NCBI GenBank assembly: GCA_021785655.1
Contig: JAJYET010000006.1
Coordinates: forward strand, 1 to 64,000
Source of the DNA: a bacterium
Lineage (GTDB): Bacteria > Chloroflexota > Dormibacteria > Aeolococcales > Bog-877
Direction: 5' to 3'
Length of the DNA stretch: 64,000 nt
The notes beneath the pieces are model-generated. The model was not told the DNA's origin. It did not search any database and was given only the letters and a program-made list of their open reading frames with translations. The translations under genes and the position numbers were made by a program. This document shows positions 4,623 through 16,213 of this stretch, in pieces (positions within the stretch are counted from its first letter, which is position 1; each line of letters opens with the position of its first letter).

Positions 4623-5894
4623 TCAGCCGCGGGGGTGGGCGGCTCGCTCCTGGGTGATCACCACCTTCACCGCGCCACTGCGATCTGGCCGGGCGGCGGC
4701 TTGGAAGGCCTCGCGCCACAGATGCAGCGGGAACCGGTGGGTGATCCAGTCGGAAACCAGCTCTCGGTCGGCCTCCAGCCGGGCCAGCGCCAGGTCCAGA
4801 TGGTGCCCGGCCGGGGTCCTCCCGTATCCGTTGGAGCCCCCCTGGCGCACCTCCTTGAAGTAGGCGAGGGTGGTCTCGGCCCGGCCCGGCCGGGCCACGC
4901 CCACGGTCACCAGCTGTCCCCGGGGGCGGACCGCACGAAGGGCCAGCTCCACGGTTCCCGGGGTCCCGATCGAATCCAGAACCAGGTCCGGACCGGCGTC
5001 CAGGGCCCATTGGCCTCCCCTCCAGGGCCGTACCAGCCCGGCCCCGGTGAGCTCGGCCACCCGCTGGAGGACCGCCGGCGCCGCCGGGGGCACCGGCACC
5101 CCGGGAAGGCTCTCCACCAGCTTCCGCTGGTGCTCCCAGGCGCAGGTCACCAGCAGCGTCGCCCGAGGCCAGCGGCGGCAGGCTCCGAGGGCCAGACTCA
5201 GCCCGATGGTTCCCGCCCCCAGAACGAGGACCATCTCCGGCTCGCCCTCCACCTGGTCCAGGGCGTGCAGAGCGACGGCCACGGGGTCGGCCAGGACCGC
5301 CAGCTCCGGCGGCATGGCCGCCGGCAGCGGGTGGAGCTGGGAGGCGTGCGCCGTGATCCGGGGAGCGAAGCCTCCCGGGAGGCCCCGCACGTTGCCCAGA
5401 TGCATTCCGTACCCTGAGCCCCAGGGGCCGCCTGTGCGCACCCAGCGGCAGTGGGGGGGGAAGCCCCGCTCGCAGGCCGCGCACGGCTGGTCCAGCCCCC
5501 GCGCCTGGCAACCGAGCCAGGGGTCCACCGCGACCAGCTGGCCGGCCTCGACGTCGCCGTGCCGGGGTGGGTCGAGGACCCGGGCGAGGATCTCGTGTCC
5601 GAGGACGTGGGGAAAGGAGATCAACCCGCTGAGAGGGTTGTCGGAGCTGGCCTGGAGCAGGGCTTCCTTGACGTCCGAGCCGCAGACACCGGTTGAGAGC
5701 GGCTCCAGCAGGGCCCACTCCGGGCGTGGCCGAACGGGGTCACGTACCTCGCGCAACCCGAGTGGGCCCCCTCCCAGGAGCGCCCACCCTGGGCGCACCC
5801 GGGAGGCGATGCCGCCAATCAGGAGGGTCCGCGGTCTGGGGTCGAAGGTGAGCGCCAGCATCCCTCCAGGGTACCCGGGGGCGGGCCTGACCAC
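4623..5894 (-). CDS. Zinc-dependent medium-chain alcohol dehydrogenase family protein
   Basis: 423 aa. It has the GroES-like fold at the N-terminus with catalytic zinc ligands in STGVCGSDV and VLGHEI, a structural zinc lobe formed by spaced cysteines (CQARG..., PCAACERG..., HCR), and a Rossmann NAD(P) domain with VLGAGTIGLSLALG. The region after the structural zinc is longer than usual. The family oxidises alcohols or polyols; threonine or sugar-alcohol dehydrogenases are the closest general type, and the substrate cannot be read from the sequence. The start is GTG at 5894, but Met12 (MLALTFDP) is a plausible alternative. It is divergent from ispH and otherwise stands alone. Confidence 0.85.
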   Translation of the reverse strand: MVRPAPGYPGGMLALTFDPRPRTLLIGGIASRVRPGWALLGGGPLGLREVRDPVRPRPEWALLEPLSTGVCGSDVKEALLQASSDNPLSGLISFPHVLGHEILARVLDPPRHGDVEAGQLVAVDPWLGCQARGLDQPCAACERGFPPHCRWVRTGGPWGSGYGMHLGNVRGLPGGFAPRITAHASQLHPLPAAMPPELAVLADPVAVALHALDQVEGEPEMVLVLGAGTIGLSLALGACRRWPRATLLVTCAWEHQRKLVESLPGVPVPPAAPAVLQRVAELTGAGLVRPWRGGQWALDAGPDLVLDSIGTPGTVELALRAVRPRGQLVTVGVARPGRAETTLAYFKEVRQGGSNGYGRTPAGHHLDLALARLEADRELVSDWITHRFPLHLWREAFQAAARPDRSGAVKVVITQERAAHPRG

Positions 5895-6011: not shown

Positions 6012-6863
6012 ATGAGCTTGTCGGTGCAGGTGATCCGCCCTCGGCACACCGGGTTCTGCTTCGGGGTGCGGGATGCGCTCGAGCTCACCCGCAGGACCGT
6101 GGAGGAGGGCGGCGAGGTGCTGGCCCTGGGGCAGGTGGTGCACAACGCCCGGGCCCTGGAGGAGCTGGAGGCGCAGGGGCTGCACGAAGCGAGCGCGCTC
6201 CCCGAGGCCCCGGGCCCGAGCGTGGTCGTGACCGCCCACGGCGCCCCCCCGGAGCTCTTCGCCGAGGCCGACCGCCGGGGGCTCAAGGTGGTGGACACCA
6301 CCTGCCCGCTGGTGCGCCGGGTGCAGCACCATGCGGAAGATCTGGGCCAGCTGGCGGGCACCGTGGTCGTGGTGGGACACTCTGAGCACAGCGAGGTGCG
6401 GGGGGTGGTGGGATGGGCCGCCTCCCAGGGGGCGGAGGTCGAGGTGGTGGCGAGTCTGGAGGACGCGGAGCGGCTGCCCTGGAGGGCGCGCCGTGGCGTG
6501 GTCTCCCAGAGCACCTTCCCCCAGTCGCGGTTCCGGGAGATAGCGGAGGTTGTGGCCGGGCGCACGGGGGAGGTGGAGGTGCGCGACACGACCTGCCCGG
6601 TGGTGACCCAGCGCCAGCGGGAGGCGCTCCGCTCTCTGCTCGACGAGGTGGACGTGGCGGTGGTGGTCGGGGGGCGGGGGTCCGCCAACACCCAGGCCCT
6701 GGCTGAGACCTGCGCCACGGTGCGGCCGACCCACCTCGTGGAGAGCGCTGCTGAGGTTCGTCCGGAGTGGTTCAGCCCCGGGCAGCGCGTTGGGATCACC
6801 TCCGGTACCTCCACCCCCTCCTGGGTGGTGGACGAGGTGGAGGCTGCCTGTCGTGTCCTCTGA
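6012..6863 (+). CDS. ispH: 4-hydroxy-3-methylbut-2-enyl diphosphate reductase
   Basis: 283 aa. IspH (LytB) makes IPP and DMAPP from HMBPP in the last step of the MEP pathway, using a [4Fe-4S] cluster. The three cluster cysteines are visible: FCFGV (Cys16), DTTCPLV (Cys98) and DTTCPVV (Cys195). Other family motifs are HGAPPEL, VGHSEHSEVRG and SQSTFPQSRF. The length fits the family. It is the first gene of a six-gene rightward operon leading to hopanoids, and its 3' end overlaps the next start by 11 nt. This placement ties supply of C5 units to squalene and hopene formation. Confidence 0.96.
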   Translation: MSLSVQVIRPRHTGFCFGVRDALELTRRTVEEGGEVLALGQVVHNARALEELEAQGLHEASALPEAPGPSVVVTAHGAPPELFAEADRRGLKVVDTTCPLVRRVQHHAEDLGQLAGTVVVVGHSEHSEVRGVVGWAASQGAEVEVVASLEDAERLPWRARRGVVSQSTFPQSRFREIAEVVAGRTGEVEVRDTTCPVVTQRQREALRSLLDEVDVAVVVGGRGSANTQALAETCATVRPTHLVESAAEVRPEWFSPGQRVGITSGTSTPSWVVDEVEAACRVL

Positions 6864-7911
6864 GGAGCCCGCCACCCTGCAGGTGCGGCCGGAGGGGTTG
6901 ACCGAGGGCCTGGCCCAGGCGGCCCAGGACCTTCTGGGTCGGTACCAGGAGAGGGTGACCGCAGGTCTGGAGCGCGCCTGCGCCCTTCTGCCGCCGGAGG
7001 TGGCCGGCCCGGCGCGGTACCACCTGGGCCTGGAGGAGGGCGCCCGGCCCGGCAAGGCGCTCCGCCCAACCCTGACCATGCTGGTGGGGGAGGGGCTGGG
7101 GGCGGACCGGCGGGTGCCCGCCCACCTGGCCACCGCCGTCCAGCTGGTCCACGACTTCTCCCTGGCCCATGACGACATCGTCGACGAGGACCGCGCTCGC
7201 CGCGGGCAGCCGGCCCTCTGGGTTAGATACGGGCTTCCCACCGCCCTCAACACCGGGGACGCCCTCCTCACCCTGGCCTTCCAGCTGCTGGCGGCGAGAG
7301 AGCTGACCCCGGAGGTGGCCCAGAGGGCGAGCGCCGAGCTGAGCCGCGCCACCATGGAGATGGTGGCGGGGCAGCAGGCGGACATCTCCGGCACCGGTGC
7401 CCCATTCCACGGGCTCTCCGCCTACATGCGGATGGTTGAGCTCAAGACGGGGGCGCTCATGGGGGCAGCCACCGCCCTGGGGGCGATCGCCGCCGGCGCG
7501 GGGCCGGACACCGTATCGGCCTGCGAGGCCTTCGGCCGCACTCTGGGGATCGCCTTCCAGCTCCGGGACGACGCCCTCGGCGTGTTCGGCGACGAGGTGG
7601 TGACCGGCAAGCCGGTGGGCAACGACCTGGTTCGCGGCAAGCAGGGGCTCCCGCTGCTTCTGGCACTGAGCGGCAACGGCGACCTGGGGAGCGCGGCGCG
7701 GAGCTGGCTGGAGCCCCCCGGGCTGCGCCTGGGCGACCTGCCGACGGCGGTGGCCCTGCTGCGGGAGGGCGGGGTTGCGGACCGCTGCCAGGGGCTCACC
7801 ACGACCTGGACCGAGAAGGCCCTCAACGCCGCCGCTCGGCTCCCGCTGGAGGGCGGAGTGGCGGGCGAGATCGAGATTCTCTGCCGCTGGCTGGGGGAGC
7901 GGGCGTCTTGA
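6853..7911 (+). CDS. Polyprenyl (farnesyl/geranylgeranyl type) diphosphate synthase
   Basis: 352 aa. The first aspartate-rich motif is HDDIVDED (about residues 106-113) and the second is LRDDALGVFGD (about 237-247). KPVGNDLVRGKQ follows, typical of trans-isoprenyl diphosphate synthases. The enzyme condenses IPP onto allylic diphosphates. In this operon it most likely supplies farnesyl diphosphate to HpnC/HpnD, though the second motif resembles GGPP synthases. I chose GTG 6853 because GGAGG at 6839-6843 sits 9 nt upstream; an upstream in-frame ATG at 6790 would add a low-complexity proline stretch lying inside ispH. Its stop overlaps the shc start as TTGA. Confidence 0.9.
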   Translation: MSSEEPATLQVRPEGLTEGLAQAAQDLLGRYQERVTAGLERACALLPPEVAGPARYHLGLEEGARPGKALRPTLTMLVGEGLGADRRVPAHLATAVQLVHDFSLAHDDIVDEDRARRGQPALWVRYGLPTALNTGDALLTLAFQLLAARELTPEVAQRASAELSRATMEMVAGQQADISGTGAPFHGLSAYMRMVELKTGALMGAATALGAIAAGAGPDTVSACEAFGRTLGIAFQLRDDALGVFGDEVVTGKPVGNDLVRGKQGLPLLLALSGNGDLGSAARSWLEPPGLRLGDLPTAVALLREGGVADRCQGLTTTWTEKALNAAARLPLEGGVAGEIEILCRWLGERAS

Positions 7912-9851
7912 CGCTGGAGGTGGCCCTGCCACCGAGCCCGGACTCCGGGGCTCGGGGGGCCTCGGGAGCCGTCCTGGCGCGGGCGGTGGACAGCCTCCTG
8001 CGGCGCCAGCATCCGGATGGCCACTGGATGGGAGAGCTGGAGAGCAACGCCTCCATCACCGCCGAGTACGTGCTCCTGGGCCGCTACCTCGAGGTGGTCG
8101 ATCCCGCCAGAGAGGCCGCGGCGGTCCGCCATCTCCTGGGGGAGCAGGGTGAGGACGGTGGCTACCCCATGGCCCCCGGGCTGGAGGGCGACGTGAGCAT
8201 CACCACCGAGGTGATGGTGGCCCTGCGGGCGGCCGGGCTCCCCAGGAGCCACCCCCAGGTGGAGGCAGCCCGTCGGTTCGTGGCGGCGCACGGCGGGGTG
8301 GAGGCCACTCGGATGTTCACCCGCCTGTGGCTGGCGCTGGGGGGGCTCTGGCCCTGGCGGGAGCTGCCCGCGGTACCGCCGGAATGGGTGCTGCTCCCGG
8401 GCCGGTTCCCAGGCAGCATCTACGACCTGGCCTCGTGGGCCAGGGCCACCACCGTCCCGCTGAGCATCCTCCGCACCCAGGAGACCGTCTTCCCCCTCTC
8501 CCAGCCCACCCCGGACGAGCTGCCACGAGGTGCCCGGGGCCGGGCCGCCGGGACCTGGGGCTGGCGGGTGGCGGAGCGGCTGGCCCGCCACTACGAGCGA
8601 CTGCCATGGACGCCCACCCGCCGGCTGGCCCTGTCGAGGGCGGAGAGGTGGGTCCTGGACCACCAGGAGGCGGACGGCTCCTGGGCCGGCATCCAGCCCC
8701 CCTGGGTGTACGGGCTCATGGCGCTGCGGGCCCGCGGACTGGGACTGGACCACCCTGCGGTGCGCTCGGGGCTGGCGGCGCTGGAGAGCTTCGGCATCGA
8801 GGACGAGCAGGGATTCCGGTTGCAGGCCTGCATCTCGCCGGTCTGGGACACCGCCCTCGCGGTCTGGGCGCTGGCGGATGCCGGCCTGCCGGGCGATCAC
8901 CCCGCCATCCGCCGGGGGGTGGAGTGGCTGATGGGGCGGGAGGTGCGGCGCCCGGGCGACTGGGCTGTGAGGCGGCCCGGAGTCACCCCGGGCGGCTGGC
9001 CGTTCGAGCTCTTCAACGACCAGTACCCCGACACCGATGACACCGCCGTGGTGCTTTGCGCCCTGACGGCGGCCGGACACCGGCGGCACGAGCCCGGCGA
9101 GGTGGGCGCGGCCATGGAGCGTGCGATCCGCTGGCTCCTCGCCATGCAGGGCGAGGACGGTGGGTTCGGAGCCTTCGACGTGGACAACCGGCGAAGCTGG
9201 GTGGAGCACCTGCCCACCTCGGACTTCGGAGAGGTGCTCGACCCGCCCAGCCCCGATGTGACGGCCCACGTCGTCGAGGCCCTGGTGCGGTGCGGGGGGG
9301 ACGACCTGGAGCCGGCCCGGCTGCGGGCGCTGGCCTGGTTGCGCCGCTCCGAGGAGGGATCCGGCGCCTACTACGGCCGCTGGGGCGTGAATTACGTGTA
9401 CGGCGCGGCCGCGGTGGCGCCGGCGCTGGCGGTCAGGGACGACCCGGCGGATCGGGAGCGGCTCTTGCGGCTGGGCCAGTGGGTGATCGAGCACCAGCAC
9501 GCCGACGGGTCATTCGGGGAGTCGGTGCTCTCCTACCACGAGCCCCAGCACATCGGACGCGGAGAGGCCACCCCCTCCCAGACCGCCTGGGCGCTCCTGG
9601 CCCTTCTGGCGGCGGCCCGGGGCTCCGGGGAGCTGGACAGGGATGGCCGGCTCCGGGCGGCCGCCGAATCCGCCGCCCAGAGCCTCGCCGAAACCCAGCT
9701 CCCCGACGGGGGGTGGGACGACCCCTACTTCACCGGCACCGGATTCCCCCGCGCCTTCTACCTGCGCTACCGGCTGTACGCCACGGTCTTCCCGGTGATG
9801 GCTCTGGCCCGCTTCTCGGCACCCGGCCGGGAGCTGGGATCAAGCTGGTGA
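7908..9851 (+). CDS. shc: Squalene-hopene cyclase
   Basis: 647 aa, normal length. The enzyme cyclises squalene to hopene/hopanol at the membrane surface. The DXDDTA protonation motif appears as YPDTDDTAVV at about residue 373-381. Repeated QW-type motifs are visible, such as QHPDGHWMG, QEADGSWAG, QGEDGGFGAF, QHADGSFGES and QLPDGGWDD. WPFELFNDQ precedes the active-site motif. The start is TTG 7908, overlapping the upstream stop by 4 nt (TTGA). The next gene starts at GTGA over its stop. Hopanoids order bacterial membranes much as sterols do in eukaryotes. Confidence 0.97.
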   Translation: MTLEVALPPSPDSGARGASGAVLARAVDSLLRRQHPDGHWMGELESNASITAEYVLLGRYLEVVDPAREAAAVRHLLGEQGEDGGYPMAPGLEGDVSITTEVMVALRAAGLPRSHPQVEAARRFVAAHGGVEATRMFTRLWLALGGLWPWRELPAVPPEWVLLPGRFPGSIYDLASWARATTVPLSILRTQETVFPLSQPTPDELPRGARGRAAGTWGWRVAERLARHYERLPWTPTRRLALSRAERWVLDHQEADGSWAGIQPPWVYGLMALRARGLGLDHPAVRSGLAALESFGIEDEQGFRLQACISPVWDTALAVWALADAGLPGDHPAIRRGVEWLMGREVRRPGDWAVRRPGVTPGGWPFELFNDQYPDTDDTAVVLCALTAAGHRRHEPGEVGAAMERAIRWLLAMQGEDGGFGAFDVDNRRSWVEHLPTSDFGEVLDPPSPDVTAHVVEALVRCGGDDLEPARLRALAWLRRSEEGSGAYYGRWGVNYVYGAAAVAPALAVRDDPADRERLLRLGQWVIEHQHADGSFGESVLSYHEPQHIGRGEATPSQTAWALLALLAAARGSGELDRDGRLRAAAESAAQSLAETQLPDGGWDDPYFTGTGFPRAFYLRYRLYATVFPVMALARFSAPGRELGSSW

Positions 9852-10714
9852 GCCGGGCCACGCTACCTGAGTACTCCCGGACCCGGCTGGCAGAGGCCCG
9901 CGGCCGCGAGAACTTCCCCATCGCCGCCTGGCTGCTGCGCCCCTCGCGGCGGGAGGCCAGAGCCGCCATCTACGGCTTCTGCCGGCTGGTGGACGACATC
10001 GGGGACGAGCGGTTGGGCGACCCTGTGGGGCAGCTCGACCGCTGCCGGGAGGAGCTCGAGGCCTGCTACACCGGTGGGCCGGAGCACCAGGTATTCGTCC
10101 GGCTGCGCCCGGTGATCCAGCGGTTCGACCTGCCCAGGGATCCGTTCTCTCGGCTGATCGCGGCCAACCAGCAGGACCAGGAGGTCATGACCTACTCCAC
10201 CTGGGAGGAGCTGGACCGGTACTGCGACCTCTCCGCCAATCCGGTGGGCGAGCTGGTTCTTGCCCTGGAGGGGATCCGTGACCCCGAGCGCATCTCCCTC
10301 TCCGACTCCATCTGCACCGGGTTGCAGCTGGTCAACATGTGGCAGGACGTGGCCTCGGACCGGGGGCGGGGCCGGCGCTATCTGCCGGCCGAGGTCCTCG
10401 CCCAGCACGGGGTGGACGAGGGGGATTGGTGGCGGGGGCTTCCCACCCCGGGGATGCGGGCGGCCCTGGCCCACGCCGTGGGCCGGGCCCGGGGCCTGCT
10501 GCGCCAGGGCTGGCCCCTGTCGGCGAGCACACCGGGGCTCATGCGGCTGGAGATGGCCACCTTCATCCTGAGTGGCCTGGAGGCCTCGGACGGGGTGCTG
10601 GCGGCTGGGGACCGAGTTTTCGAACGCAAGGCCGATCTGCCCCGGGGCGCGCGGCGCCGGGCCCTCCTGGGATCCCTGGCCGCGCTTCGCGCCGGCCGCT
10701 CCAGGACGGCATGA
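9848..10714 (+). CDS. hpnC: Squalene/hydroxysqualene synthase HpnC
   Basis: 288 aa, squalene/phytoene synthase fold. The first Asp-rich motif is LVDDIGDE (about residues 46-53) and the second is MWQDVASDRGRGRRYLP (about 163-179). In known hopanoid producers HpnC converts presqualene diphosphate to hydroxysqualene, which HpnE then reduces. The true start is GTG 9848, overlapping the shc stop (GTGA); longer upstream extensions in this frame lie inside shc. Gene order shc-hpnC-hpnD-hpnE and the LANQQDQEV-like sequence support HpnC rather than phytoene synthase. Confidence 0.93.
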   Translation: MSRATLPEYSRTRLAEARGRENFPIAAWLLRPSRREARAAIYGFCRLVDDIGDERLGDPVGQLDRCREELEACYTGGPEHQVFVRLRPVIQRFDLPRDPFSRLIAANQQDQEVMTYSTWEELDRYCDLSANPVGELVLALEGIRDPERISLSDSICTGLQLVNMWQDVASDRGRGRRYLPAEVLAQHGVDEGDWWRGLPTPGMRAALAHAVGRARGLLRQGWPLSASTPGLMRLEMATFILSGLEASDGVLAAGDRVFERKADLPRGARRRALLGSLAALRAGRSRTA

Positions 10715-11589
10715 GCGTCAGCTCGGCCCAGTTGGAGCTGGGGTACCGCCGCTGCGCCCGGGAGGTGCGAGCGGCAGCCGGCAACTTCTACTACGCCTTC
10801 CGGCTCCTGCCCCCAGAGAAGCGCCGGGCGCTCCACGCCCTCTACCGCTTCTGCCGGGGCGCGGACGACATCGCCGACGCCCCCGAGGCCGCCGGTTTGC
10901 GGCTCCGACGGCTCGACTCCTACCGCAGCACCCTGGAGCGCAGCCTGGCCGGGTACCCTCCGGACTCGGGCTGGCTCATCCTGGTGGACACCGCGGGACG
11001 GTTCTCCCTCTCCCCCGAACACCTGAATCAGGTGATTGACGGCTGCGCCGCCGACTGCCGGCCGCTGCGGATCCGCTCCGAGCGAGAGCTCGCCGACTAC
11101 TGCTACGGCGTTGCCGGGGTGGTGGGGCTACTCAGCGCCCGGATCTTCCGCTACCGGGATCCCCGGGTGGAGACGCTGGCCGTGGACCTGGGGGAGGCGA
11201 TGCAGCGAACCAACATCCTCCGAGACCTGGGGGAGGACTTGGCGGCCGGGCGGCGCTATCTGCCCGAGGAGGTGATGGACCGCTTTCAGCTCTCTGCGGA
11301 GGACCTCCTGGTGGGGGCGAGAGGCCCGAATGCCACCCGCTACCGCGACCTCATGGCCCACGAGGTGGCGCTGGCCCGGGAGCGCTTCCGGAGCGGCCTC
11401 CAGCTGGTGCCGCTGGTGGAGCGGGACGCCCGCGGCTGCCCGGCGGCCCTCGCCGCCCTGTACCAGGCGCTGCTGGACCGGATTGAGCAGGACGGATACG
11501 ACGTGCAGGGCCAGCGGGTCAGGCTCAGCTCCCGGCACAAGCTGGGACTGGCCCTTGTCGCCTGGGCGAGCGCCACGCTCAGGCCCTGA
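10711..11589 (+). CDS. hpnD: Presqualene diphosphate synthase HpnD
   Basis: 292 aa, squalene/phytoene synthase family. Motifs are YRFCRGADDIAD (about residues 45-56) and QRTNILRDLGEDLAAGRRYLP (about 165-185). HpnD condenses two farnesyl diphosphates to presqualene diphosphate, the entry step of the three-enzyme bacterial squalene route. The start ATG 10711 overlaps the hpnC stop as ATGA. Its second Asp motif is the fully conserved DLGED form, unlike QDVASD in HpnC, which matches the usual division of labour between the pair. Confidence 0.94.
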   Translation: MSVSSAQLELGYRRCAREVRAAAGNFYYAFRLLPPEKRRALHALYRFCRGADDIADAPEAAGLRLRRLDSYRSTLERSLAGYPPDSGWLILVDTAGRFSLSPEHLNQVIDGCAADCRPLRIRSERELADYCYGVAGVVGLLSARIFRYRDPRVETLAVDLGEAMQRTNILRDLGEDLAAGRRYLPEEVMDRFQLSAEDLLVGARGPNATRYRDLMAHEVALARERFRSGLQLVPLVERDARGCPAALAALYQALLDRIEQDGYDVQGQRVRLSSRHKLGLALVAWASATLRP

Positions 11590-11596
11590 GGCGGCG

Positions 11597-12913
11597 ATGA
11601 GGGCGGTGGTGGTGGGAGGCGGGCTGGCCGGGATCACCTCCGCGCTGGAGCTGGCGGACTCGGGAGTCCAGGTGGCTCTCCTGGAGCGTTCCGGTCAGCT
11701 CGGCGGGCTCTGCCGCTCCGTGCCGGACCCGGTGGCCGGCCGGGTGGACACCGGACAGCACGTGTACCTCGGATGCTGTACGGAGCTGGAGGCGCTCCTC
11801 GACCGCCTCGGAGTCGAGCCGGCCCTGCGCCAGGGCCGCCTCGGCCTCACGGTGGTGGACCCGGGGCACCCCCGCCCGCGCCGGCTCTCCGCCGCGCCGC
11901 TCCCGGCTCCCTTCCATCTGCTGCCCGTGATCGGGGGCTGGCCGATGCTGCCCCGGGGCTCCTTGATGCACATCGCCCAGGTGGCCGCCGCGCTGAGGCA
12001 GGGACCGAGCGGACTCGATGCCCTACCCGCGCTGGGCTGGCTGAGAGGCCTGGGCCAGCCAGAACAGCTCATCTCCCAGCTCTGGGAGCCCTTCCTGGTG
12101 GCCGCCTGCAACGCCCCGCTGGACCGGTGCAGCGCCGAACTGGCCGCATTCGTGGTCCGGGAGGGGCTTCTCAGCTCATCCCGCGCCGGAGCCCTTCGGG
12201 TCCCCGGGACAGACCTCACCCGCTGGCTGGACCCCCCGGCACGGCGCGCCCTGGAGAGGGCCGGAGTGGAGCTCCGCCTCGACTCGCGCGCTGTCTCGGT
12301 CTGCGGCGGACCAGGGTCGCAGGTCCGCGTGACTCACGGCGCCGGTGCGGAGGAGACCTTCGACCTGGCGGTCCTGGCGGTGCCGGCGCGGGCAGCCCAC
12401 CGCCTCCTCCTCGCGGGTGGGCGGTCCACCCCAGCTCTCGAGGCGGCCGCTGACATCCCCGATTCCCCGATCGTGAACGTGCATCTCTTCACCGACCGCC
12501 CCTTCCTGCCGGGCGCCGTGACCCTCATCCCCAGGAGCCCGCTCCAGTGGGCCTTCGACCGCTCCCGGCTGGACGACCGGTTGCTGGACGGGAGCTGGCA
12601 CTCCGCCATCTCCATCTCCGCCGCCGAGGCGGAGGTCGGGGTGCCCGAGGCCCGCCTCGCCGCCGACATCTGGCAGCTGTGCCAGGCGACGTTCCCACCC
12701 GCCGCCCGGGCCCACCTGGTGCACTGCCGGGTCACGCGGGAGGCCCACGCCACATTCTGGCCCGAGCCTGGCTCAGCGGCCCGGCGTCCGGGCCCGGGCG
12801 CCGCCATCCCCCAGGTGGCTCTGGCCGGGAGCTGGACTCGCACCGGATGGCCGGCGACGATGGAGAGTGCGGTGCGAAGCGGCAGGGCGGCGGCTCGGCA
12901 CCTTCTGGTCTGA
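11597..12913 (+). CDS. hpnE: Hydroxysqualene dehydroxylase HpnE (FAD-dependent)
   Basis: 438 aa. An N-terminal dinucleotide-binding motif VVGGGLAGITSALELA (residues 4-19) is followed by ERSGQLGGLCRS, as in amine oxidase/phytoene desaturase-like flavoproteins. HpnE reduces hydroxysqualene to squalene. The C-terminus carries the second FAD-contact segment (VALAGSWTRTGWPATMESA). The start ATG 11597 lies 7 nt after the hpnD stop. It ends the rightward operon, and 12914-13075 is a convergent gap in which I see nothing distinctive. Confidence 0.93.
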   Translation: MRAVVVGGGLAGITSALELADSGVQVALLERSGQLGGLCRSVPDPVAGRVDTGQHVYLGCCTELEALLDRLGVEPALRQGRLGLTVVDPGHPRPRRLSAAPLPAPFHLLPVIGGWPMLPRGSLMHIAQVAAALRQGPSGLDALPALGWLRGLGQPEQLISQLWEPFLVAACNAPLDRCSAELAAFVVREGLLSSSRAGALRVPGTDLTRWLDPPARRALERAGVELRLDSRAVSVCGGPGSQVRVTHGAGAEETFDLAVLAVPARAAHRLLLAGGRSTPALEAAADIPDSPIVNVHLFTDRPFLPGAVTLIPRSPLQWAFDRSRLDDRLLDGSWHSAISISAAEAEVGVPEARLAADIWQLCQATFPPAARAHLVHCRVTREAHATFWPEPGSAARRPGPGAAIPQVALAGSWTRTGWPATMESAVRSGRAAARHLLV

Positions 12914-13075: not shown

Positions 13076-14464
13076 TCACCGGCCCGCCACCGGCTCGGCG
13101 GGCCCCACGGTGCGGCCCTCGCCCCCCATCAGAAGAGGGACCGCATGGGCGACCGCCCTGCCCAGCTCCGCGAGCACGCGTTGCTGCCTGCCACCGAGGC
13201 GGATGAGGGCCGCAAGTAACGCCGGTCGCCGGGCCACCAGCCCCACCACGCGCAGCGGAGAGGCGCCGCGACGACCTTCGGCCACCAGGCCGGCGAGCGG
13301 CCCCAGCGGATCAGAGGGCCGGTCCAGCACCACGCGCAGGCCGCCCACCGCCAGGGCGCGCCCCGAGGACCAGCCGGCCATCTCCATCTCCACGAGGTCG
13401 GCGCCGAGGGAGCGCAGTCGGTCGCGCTCACGGGGATCGTCCACCACCGCGCCCACCGAGGCGATGGTCGCCAGTCGGGCGCCTTCGAGGGCGCCCAGAC
13501 CCGAGGTGATGCCGAGATCGAGGTCCACCGGCTCTCGCCCCTCGGCCAACAACCGGCCCGCCACCGCCAGCGTCCCCGTCGCCCAGGAGTCACGCAGCGC
13601 GCCAGCGACCCCCGCCACCAGGACGCGGGCGCCCGGAGGGGCCAGGGCGCCAGCGGCCCGGGCCCGGGCCGGGCCGGTCCCGGTGGCCCACACCTCCACC
13701 CCGCCGCCAGGGCGCCTCCAGCGCACCAGATCGTGCGCCGGATCCCGCTCCCACGGTCCACCAAGGGCGCGACGGCAGGCGGCCGCCTCGGCGTCCAGGG
13801 CACAGGCCACCAGGAGCTCCGCCGGTCGCGGGTTCGGCCAGGCGGTGCGCCGGGCCAGCAGACCCGTGAGGACCAGGATGAGCACCGCCCCCAGGGCGCT
13901 CGGGCCCACTCCCAGCAGGGCCGCCAGAACCGTGCTCTGCAGCATCACAGCCAGGAGCAGGAGTCCGCTCAAGGTGAGCGGACTCCGGAGGGAGCCCGGG
14001 TAATCCCCAAGGCAGAGGCGGGTCCACAGAGCGATGGCCACTCCGACGGCCAGCCAGCCGACGTAGTTGAGGAGGCTGACCCCATACCAGACCCCGCTCC
14101 CCTGCGGATAGGTGTAGATCGACCCCAGCCACCACCGGCCGCCCCGGAGCGCCACCGGGTCCACCACCAGGTCGATGGCGACCATGGCGATCCCCGTGAG
14201 CACCACCCGGAACACCCCTCGGGAGCCCAGCCTGCCCAGAACCGTGAACGAGGAGACGGCCAGCCAGGTGAAGCTCAGGCTGTCGAAGAGTGGGACTCCC
14301 ACGACCCGCAGGTCGGATCGCAGGCCAGAAGGCCGGTAATGGTAGACGCCGAAGGGAACGCCGGGGCCGGCGGTCGAGCCCCACTCCGCCAGCCAGGCGA
14401 TCAGATAGCCGCCGGCCAGCAGCGGCAGCGCCCGGCGCCAGCCGAAGGCGCGGACCACGACCAC
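13076..14464 (-). CDS. Fusion of a CruF-like (DUF422) membrane domain and a HpnG-like hopanoid phosphorylase
   Basis: 462 aa. Residues about 1-215 are hydrophobic with about six or seven membrane helices and carry PF04240/CruF signatures: GVYHYRPSG, VPLFDSLSFTW, AIDLVVDPVA and GVSLLNYVGW. CruF is a carotenoid 1,2-hydratase. Residues about 222-440 resemble the nucleoside phosphorylase HpnG, which removes adenine from adenosylhopane: VACALDAEAAACRRALGG, VLVAGVAGALRDSWATGTL, the GADLVEMEMAGW equivalent of the purine-site MEM motif, and RPSDPLGPL. The upstream in-frame sequence from about 14532 is open and hydrophobic but lacks ATG/GTG/TTG, so GTG 14464 is used; a CTG start about 19 codons further up (near 14521) is possible. 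The role of the membrane part with hopanoids is unknown. Confidence 0.82.
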   Translation of the reverse strand: MVVVRAFGWRRALPLLAGGYLIAWLAEWGSTAGPGVPFGVYHYRPSGLRSDLRVVGVPLFDSLSFTWLAVSSFTVLGRLGSRGVFRVVLTGIAMVAIDLVVDPVALRGGRWWLGSIYTYPQGSGVWYGVSLLNYVGWLAVGVAIALWTRLCLGDYPGSLRSPLTLSGLLLLAVMLQSTVLAALLGVGPSALGAVLILVLTGLLARRTAWPNPRPAELLVACALDAEAAACRRALGGPWERDPAHDLVRWRRPGGGVEVWATGTGPARARAAGALAPPGARVLVAGVAGALRDSWATGTLAVAGRLLAEGREPVDLDLGITSGLGALEGARLATIASVGAVVDDPRERDRLRSLGADLVEMEMAGWSSGRALAVGGLRVVLDRPSDPLGPLAGLVAEGRRGASPLRVVGLVARRPALLAALIRLGGRQQRVLAELGRAVAHAVPLLMGGEGRTVGPAEPVAGR

Positions 14465-14531
14465 GGCCGTCAGCAGCCAGGGGAGGATGGCGTACCAGCG
14501 TCCGACCAGGGCGGGGATCCAGGCGGGCAGC

Positions 14532-15533
14532 TCAGCCGTCCCCGCGCGGCCCTAGCTCGGCCACCGCCTGGCGCAGCGCCTCCTGGAGGTCGCCGGGCGT
14601 CCACCCGAGCTCCGACCGCGCCCGCTCCGCCGTCACGTACATGGGCCTGGCCGCCATCCGGACGGCGGTGAGAGGGATCCCCGGGGCCCGGTGGCGCACC
14701 GCCGCCGACCCCTCACTGACCACGGCCGCGGCAAACCCCATCCAGATGGGGATCCGGTACCGGGGAGCCGGACGCCCGGCCAGTCGAGCCAGCTCGCAGA
14801 GGAGCCGACTCATGGTCCAGTTCTGGTCACCCAGGATGTAGCTCCGGCCGGGCCTTCCCCCCTCCAGGGCCAGCACATGTCCTGTCCCCACCGCCCGGAC
14901 GTCGACGAGGTTGAGGCCGGTGTCGGTGGCTGCCGGAATCCGTCCCCCAAGGAAGTCCCGGATGATGGCCCCGGTGGGGGTCGGCCGCCGGTCACCTACC
15001 CCCACCGGGGTGCTCGGCTGAACCACCACCACCTGCATCGGCCCCGGGAAACCCTCGACCAGCTTCTGGGCCGCCCACTTGCTGCGCTTGTAGGCGCCAG
15101 GCAGATCCGAGGCGTCCCGGGCCAGGTCCAGCTCGGACCGGAGCTCCCCCGCCCGACTGAAGTGGAGGGTGCCCACGGTGCTGCAGTGGACGAACCGCGC
15201 CACCCCGGCCCGGGCGGCCGCCTGAAGCAGAGACGCGGTCCCGCCGACGTTGACCTCCAGCATCCGGCGGAGATCCCCGGGCCCCAGGGCGAGACGGTAG
15301 TCCGCGGCACAGTGCACCACCCCCCAGCACCCCTCGAGCGCCGGAGGCAGGGTCGTGGGGCACGTGAGGTCGCCCGGGGCCACCTCCATCCCGCCCAGTT
15401 GAGGCGGGAGCCTGGCCATCGACCGCAGCAGCAGGCGGGGCTGGTAGCCGGCCAGCGCCAGCGCGGACGCCACCCACCGCCCCACAAAGCCCGAGGCGCC
15501 GGTGACCAGGACCGCCTTTCCCTCGCCGCTCAC
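14532..15533 (-). CDS. hpnA: Hopanoid-associated sugar epimerase/dehydratase HpnA
   Basis: 333 aa, extended short-chain dehydrogenase. The NAD-binding LVTGASGFVGRWVA is at about residues 8-21, HCAADYRLALGPGD is the typical HpnA stretch, the active-site YKRSK is at about 150, and PSTPVGVGDRRPTPTGAIIR and DTGLNLVDVRAVGTGH are diagnostic of HpnA. It is thought to act in making sugar-modified (bacteriohopanetetrol-type) side chains; the exact reaction is not settled. The start is GTG 15533, overlapping the response-regulator stop as GTGA. A longer upstream frame to 15686 is only a shadow of that regulator. Confidence 0.9.
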   Translation of the reverse strand: MSGEGKAVLVTGASGFVGRWVASALALAGYQPRLLLRSMARLPPQLGGMEVAPGDLTCPTTLPPALEGCWGVVHCAADYRLALGPGDLRRMLEVNVGGTASLLQAAARAGVARFVHCSTVGTLHFSRAGELRSELDLARDASDLPGAYKRSKWAAQKLVEGFPGPMQVVVVQPSTPVGVGDRRPTPTGAIIRDFLGGRIPAATDTGLNLVDVRAVGTGHVLALEGGRPGRSYILGDQNWTMSRLLCELARLAGRPAPRYRIPIWMGFAAAVVSEGSAAVRHRAPGIPLTAVRMAARPMYVTAERARSELGWTPGDLQEALRQAVAELGPRGDG

Positions 15534-16213
15534 CGCGAGAGTTGGGGTAGTGGTTGCAGGAGGTAACCTCCACCGCGGCGGGAGCGCAGGAGGCGCGGGT
15601 GCCCCGGGTCCGGCTCCAGCTTGCGGCGGAGACGATGGACGCACATGGTCACCGCGGCCGAGGTGGCGCGCGGGTCGCCGCCCCACGCCCCCTCGATGAT
15701 CTGCTGACGGGACAGGACCGTCCCCGCGTTCAGCGCCAGGTATTCGAGGAGGTCGGCCTCACGAGGGCTCAGCAGGTGACGCCGGCCCTCAATCCGGGCG
15801 CTGCGCCGGGCGGGCTCGACGATGAGCGGACCAACCTCGACCACCCGGCCGGCGGACCGCCTCTCCACCTGCCGGCGGCGGAGCACCGCCCGCAGGGTGG
15901 CCGTGAGAAGCGCCGGCGGGTAGGGCTTGGGCAGCACGTAGTCCGCGCCCGCCTCCATCAGCGAGGGAGCCTGGTGAGTCTCCCCCAGGACCACCAGCGG
16001 GCAGGTGGAGATGGCCCTGACCGCCTCCACCCCGCGCAGCCCCTGGAGGAGCCCGAGATCGGCCAGGATGGCGGCGGGCGCCTCCTCGCGCAGGGCCAGC
16101 TCCAGCCTCTCCAGTGAACCGGCGACTCGGGAGCTGAGGCCGGGAAGTTGGCCCACCAGGTGGGCGGCCACGGCCGCGTACTCCGGCTCGGCCTCCAGGA
16201 TCAGGATGACCAT
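15530..16213 (-). CDS. OmpR/PhoB-family response regulator at the head of the hpnA operon
   Basis: 227 aa. The receiver domain (1-115) has an acidic pocket in ILEAEPEY, the phospho-acceptor aspartate in ILADLGLL, and the invariant lysine in VLPKPYP. The C-terminal winged helix contains LSPREADLLEYLALNAG and VHRLRRKLEPDPGHPRLLRSRRGGGYLL. No histidine kinase gene lies nearby, so it is an orphan in this window. Its stop overlaps hpnA (GTGA), which makes co-transcription with the hopanoid tailoring genes likely. The start ATG 16213 has CACAAT 7 nt upstream, so the mRNA may be leaderless. Target genes are unknown. Confidence 0.88.
   Translation of the reverse strand: MVILILEAEPEYAAVAAHLVGQLPGLSSRVAGSLERLELALREEAPAAILADLGLLQGLRGVEAVRAISTCPLVVLGETHQAPSLMEAGADYVLPKPYPPALLTATLRAVLRRRQVERRSAGRVVEVGPLIVEPARRSARIEGRRHLLSPREADLLEYLALNAGTVLSRQQIIEGAWGGDPRATSAAVTMCVHRLRRKLEPDPGHPRLLRSRRGGGYLLQPLPQLSR

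Follow-up and report, generated by a model that had tools for sequence, protein, structure and literature searches.

Hopanoids are the sterol-like lipids of bacteria. In their synthesis, the candidate enzyme for the removal of adenine after the HpnH step is HpnG (TIGR03468, a putative adenosylhopane phosphorylase/nucleosidase); it is not established which enzyme takes ribosylhopane to bacteriohopanetetrol, or what hpnA and other hpn genes contribute (PMC12583986). CruF adds water to the terminal isoprenoid double bond of carotenoids, and carotenoid 1′,2′-hydratases of this kind, belonging to PF04240, have been described from Synechococcus, Deinococcus and haloarchaea (reviewed in PMC6013536). 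Hopanoid pathway proteins can be fused in bacteria, as in the HpnCD protein of some Acidobacteria (PMC5462960). However, HpnCD joins two homologous squalene-synthesis enzymes, whereas the fusion described below brings in a membrane domain that the known pathway does not include. In addition, a 2025 study of Leptospirillum ferriphilum places a "carotenoid biosynthesis protein" in a hopanoid cluster with SHC, IspH, radical SAM and NAD-epimerase genes (PMC12654047). With the same product name, hopanoid genes around it and another acidophile as its host, this protein is a candidate second link of the kind considered here, known from its domain list only.

In a window of 64,000 nucleotides (the whole stretch of DNA that was analysed) from a bacterium of the phylum Chloroflexota, a DUF422/CruF domain (PF04240) is joined to an HpnG-like domain. 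The literature searched yielded no paper mentioning HpnG together with CruF, and no PF04240 protein with hopanoid activity. The C-terminal half of the fused protein resembles HpnG in its best-matching family, its hpnA neighbour, the presence of HpnH in the genome and the retention of the catalytic Glu, Glu and Asp. It differs in being attached to a seven-helix domain and in scoring only 45-47 bits (residues 275-458) against the TIGR03468 cut-off of 187.1. Similarly, the N-terminal half passes the PF04240 cut-off, keeps the signature motifs and can be aligned with a CruF encoded at a haloarchaeal crtI locus, but it is a divergent branch with an extra insertion (GSIYxYP), it falls below both CruF equivalog cut-offs, and no carotenoid genes were found in its genome.

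The fused gene and its locus

Both domains are read through by a single stop-free frame, whose limits are those of the fused gene in Table 1. The sequence-only reading had begun this gene at a GTG at 14464, which falls within the first predicted helix and is probably 22 codons too late. Ortholog comparison shows a conserved N-terminus (LPAWIPALxGRWYA...) that begins at 14530, where the codon is TTG in G348, G386 and G420 and GTG in G119; close to this position there is a GTG in G282 and G422 and an ATG in G381, G424 and G425. In the window's genus the codon at 14530 is CTG, one base past the TGA stop of hpnA, and we infer that this CTG is the true start.

Table 1. Features of the fused gene and of the hopanoid genes around it, in window positions
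Feature	Position	Strand	Remarks
Fused CruF-like/HpnG-like gene	13076..14530	minus	484 codons + stop; based on translation, ortholog start codons and full-length homologs
PF04240 Caroten_synth/CruF-like domain	13871..14497	minus	seven predicted TM helices; signature residues kept
HpnG-like nucleosidase/phosphorylase domain	13157..13819	minus	best family TIGR03468; E248, E383 and D403 at catalytic places
hpnA-like SDR ("hopanoid-associated sugar epimerase")	14532..15686	minus	directly upstream of the fused gene; TIGR03466 296.5 bits, cut-off 367.65
Winged-helix response regulator	15530..16207	minus	upstream of hpnA; PF00486 72.8 bits
ispH/lytB	6012..6863	plus	TIGR00216 217.4 bits, cut-off 187.85
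Polyprenyl diphosphate synthase	6790..7911	plus	PF00348 181.7 bits
shc, squalene-hopene cyclase	7908..9851	plus	TIGR01507 643.4 bits, cut-off 431.1
hpnC	9863..10714	plus	TIGR03464 249.9 bits, cut-off 250.45
hpnD	10729..11589	plus	TIGR03465 249.1 bits, cut-off 278.6
hpnE	11597..12913	plus	convergent with the fused gene; TIGR03467 357.8 bits, cut-off 283.05

A frameshift or an assembly error could in principle have joined two separate genes, and the sequence-only reading had itself named this danger. We regard such an artefact as excluded for all practical purposes, because separate assemblies of 16 genomes all show the same fusion, at identities as low as about 50%, and because dN/dS is low in both halves among close relatives, as is typical of purifying selection. 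The fusion is real and conserved, and it is new both as a variant of HpnG and as a variant of PF04240.

The hopanoid setting first noticed in the window holds for the family as a whole. The locus is fixed, with hpnA directly upstream of the fused gene and both convergent with ispH-fps-shc-hpnCDE, and a response regulator usually lies further upstream. In the sister family (L039, L131) a similar regulator gene immediately precedes stand-alone HpnG, and these positions suggest regulated synthesis of the hopanoid side chain. The listed hpnA-like frame reaches 15686 at its upstream end, but its actual start is probably near 15533. The polyprenyl diphosphate synthase has its best match to NF041169 (family 2 encapsulin cargo polyprenyl transferase), at 255 bits with a cut-off of 450. 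In those family members whose contigs extend far enough, a zinc-type alcohol dehydrogenase-like gene (4623-5894, minus strand, in the window) lies divergently beside ispH. A zinc alcohol dehydrogenase gene (ug2) is reported to precede hpnC in Acidobacteria (PMC5462960), and the gene beside ispH is a possible candidate for a hopanoid reductase.

Distribution and origin of the fusion

A sample of 400 genomes from across the phylum gave full-length matches to the protein only within the window's own taxonomic family, a group of uncultured bacteria; the single scan of genome contigs reached close relatives only, and fused copies may exist in other phyla. PF04240 occurs in all 18 genomes of this family, and 16 of the 18 (five genera) have both halves in a single frame. 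The CruF half is cut by a contig end in the other two, G424 and G425.

HpnG-like genes of the sister family stand alone. Two of its genomes (G223 and G403) carry a response regulator-HpnG pair beside shc-hpnCDE, and in G151 a stand-alone HpnG closes the row hpnC, hpnD, hpnE, shc, hpnH, hpnA, HpnG. PF04240 is missing from the sister family apart from G045, whose copy lies away from hopanoid genes. An HpnG-like gene also lies between hpnH and hpnA in G218, a genome from an only distantly related family of the phylum. In a tree of HpnG domains, the fused halves form one clade (support 100/98) next to the stand-alone copies of G223 and G403, a grouping that depends on the omission of two very long branches; a first tree that included them did not recover the fused group whole. 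The simplest reading of these relationships is a single fusion event in the family ancestor, between hpnA and HpnG.

Properties of the two halves

The N-terminal half exceeds the Pfam gathering cut-off of PF04240 clearly (67.9 bits against 25, residues 12-220), but it misses the NCBIfam equivalog cut-offs for CruF (39.5 against 154.7 bits for TIGR03460, which comes second behind HpnG in the NCBIfam ranking, and 26 against 300 bits for NF041333). When aligned with haloarchaeal CruF, Deinococcus and class relatives, it carries the signature motifs (E..., G-PFG-Y-Y, D..DP and NY-GW), and it keeps E49, G-x-PFG-x-Y-x-Y, D120, D124-P125, W133, G150-V151 and N155-Y156-x-G158-W159. Across the family, some 60 of its 226 residues do not vary, E49, D120 and D124 among them.

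Purifying selection acts on both halves and is stronger on the CruF half. Among close relatives dN/dS is 0.16-0.20 for the CruF half and 0.23-0.44 for the HpnG half, and the CruF half has the lower value in 11 of 11 comparisons (for example, 0.165 versus 0.234 and 0.252 versus 0.507), while the short linker between them is almost free to change. Between the window's genome and G348, identity is 65% in the CruF half and 41% in the HpnG half, with 68% for SHC and 70% for HpnC. Conservation of this kind is the pattern one would expect of a functional domain, not of a spare anchor.

Seven helices are suggested by a low-confidence structure model, and partly by hydropathy; the AlphaFold models are poor, with a mean pLDDT of 46 for the whole protein and 43 for the HpnG half. 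If the C-terminus is cytoplasmic, the loops on the inside would hold 10.9 positive charges versus 4.8 in the other loops. This bias would place the HpnG domain in the cytoplasm and the conserved PF04240 loops (L2 and L4) on the opposite face of the membrane. The earlier suggestion of a membrane-tethered enzyme agrees reasonably well with the predicted helices and with this distribution of charge.

For the C-terminal half, TIGR03468 is the best NCBIfam family; each of the 14 members tested, fused or stand-alone, matches it, and no other family gives a better E-value. The second-best family is futalosine hydrolase, at 30.6 bits, and the Pfam family PF01048 (PNP_UDP_1) gives 21.8 bits, slightly below its cut-off of 25.1. 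Low TIGR03468 scores are normal in this class, since the stand-alone HpnG of the full operon in G151 itself reaches only 66.5 bits; none of the 110 genomes of the class passes the cut-off. Because the fused protein also scores below it, we do not claim formal membership in HpnG. The HpnG label given by the sequence-only reading therefore holds as far as best family, gene position, pathway logic and catalytic residues are concerned, but not at the curated cut-off. Likewise, the profile searches it proposed bear out its assignment of both halves at superfamily level, but neither half reaches an equivalog cut-off.

Apart from the fused protein, TIGR03468 matches one protein of the genome, an ordinary nucleoside phosphorylase, and no other HpnG candidate was found. 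A phmmer search of the PDB with the whole protein gave insignificant matches only. A profile built from 14 HpnG-like domains matched MTA/SAH nucleosidases (E 1.3e-10) and aligned E383 and D403 with their positions E174 and D197; E248 was placed by pattern only, at the position of E12. All three residues of the HpnG-like domain are invariant; E12, E174 and D197 are the catalytic residues of the E. coli MTA/SAH nucleosidase.

Pathway context, proposed function and alternatives

HpnH (adenosylhopane synthase) scores 529 bits in the window's genome, where the cut-off is 225, and about 530 bits in 16 of the 18 family genomes, this one included. Carotenoid genes are another matter. The sequence-only reading had seen none near the fusion, and the genome at large (G000, 91% complete) bears this out: no CrtI exceeds the cut-off, and only HpnC and HpnD match PF00494. 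Across the family, 15 of 18 genomes, the window's among them, are without crtI over the cut-off, and no phytoene synthase beyond HpnC and HpnD was found in 16 of 18, again including the window's. In G268 and G348, two of the three genomes with crtI, the gene is a neighbour of a third SQS_PSY gene; the crtI of G376 is partial. The family genomes are incomplete MAGs, which makes single absences weak but not the pattern across all 18. Because the fusion is kept where the carotenoid pathway is missing, a carotenoid role of the fused protein appears unlikely.

We consider a membrane-bound adenosylhopane nucleosidase the most probable identity of the protein; its PF04240 module would bind hopanoids and might also modify them. 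The C-terminal domain would act on the adenosylhopane made by HpnH and remove adenine to leave (phospho)ribosylhopane (the HpnG step) for processing by HpnA and others. This domain would lie in the cytoplasm, where the radical SAM enzyme HpnH works, while the seven-helix domain would hold the enzyme at its very hydrophobic substrate and would probably touch it. Because the PF04240 half is conserved like an enzyme and keeps its acidic and aromatic signature, it probably also reacts on a hopanoid, plausibly through acid-type chemistry at a C=C bond comparable to the 1′,2′-hydration of carotenoids. By analogy with CruF, hydration of an unsaturated hopanoid would be chemically reasonable. More tentatively, the PF04240 half could be an active hopanoid-modifying enzyme that carries out, for example, double-bond hydration or an unassigned step around ribosylhopane; the protein would then be bifunctional, and PF04240 would not be a carotenoid-only family. 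Several points count against the preferred explanation: the TIGR03468 score is far under its cut-off, the papers searched contain no PF04240 protein with hopanoid activity, and the structure models are too poor to be of use. In addition, the charge bias would turn the conserved PF04240 loops away from the HpnG domain, which is a problem for a direct hand-over between active sites.

Alternatively, the PF04240 half may be a membrane anchor only, a former carotenoid hydratase that is now idle and keeps HpnG near the lipid. In keeping with this, the fused domain has diverged (it scores about 70 bits against PF04240, versus 150-220 for many PF04240 proteins elsewhere in the phylum), and the sister family does without such a domain. 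Nevertheless, we think this rather unlikely: the PF04240 half evolves more slowly than the HpnG half, at about the pace of SHC and HpnC, and an idle anchor would need hydrophobic helices alone, whereas the polar and acidic signature residues here are invariant. There is far less to recommend a genuine carotenoid hydratase that was fused by chance to HpnG, giving one protein that links two pathways. All described CruF enzymes do belong to PF04240, G268, G348 and G376 carry the carotenoid genes mentioned above, and MAG incompleteness leaves a small loophole, but the CruF equivalog cut-offs are missed and most of the family has neither CrtI (15 of 18) nor an extra phytoene synthase (16 of 18), making this highly improbable.

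The identity of the C-terminal half can be questioned in the same way, since a different nucleosidase, for example one like the futalosine or MTA/SAH nucleosidases, could lie near hopanoid genes. Such an enzyme would fit the missed TIGR03468 cut-off, the second rank of futalosine hydrolase and the MTA/SAH nucleosidases found as PDB relatives. However, TIGR03468 is still the best match, and the association with hpnA is kept in fused and stand-alone forms alike and even in the distant G218 (hpnH...HpnG-hpnA). Moreover, if this half did not act as HpnG, the genome would lack an enzyme to follow HpnH, and we judge a different nucleosidase improbable.

The family-wide fusion to HpnG is a gene-fusion clue to a hopanoid role of PF04240, a family annotated only for carotenoids, and it gives a concrete lead on a hopanoid pathway that is incompletely known. 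If the role in hopanoid synthesis is true, the label "carotenoid biosynthesis protein" will need review in many genomes that have no carotenoid genes, and the biomarker hopanoids of these bacteria may bear an unrecognised modification.

Other PF04240 proteins are found in different settings. A plasmid search gave no HpnG match and only distant PF04240 proteins, one of which, from Bradyrhizobium, is surrounded by transposases and has no hopanoid gene nearby. Low-scoring PF04240 proteins of the phylum were considered as independent links to hopanoids and rejected, as 0 of 13 neighbourhoods searched by tblastn with the window's proteins were near hpn genes. In the neighbourhoods checked, those that score about 45-70 bits and come from other families of the phylum (L178-L191) have no hopanoid or carotenoid genes close to them. 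In yet another family of the phylum, a PF04240 domain (214.6 bits) opens a frame of 540 amino acids (L033, G390:C11) whose C-terminal half looks acyltransferase-like by eye, and PF04240 may thus be fused to other lipid enzymes too.
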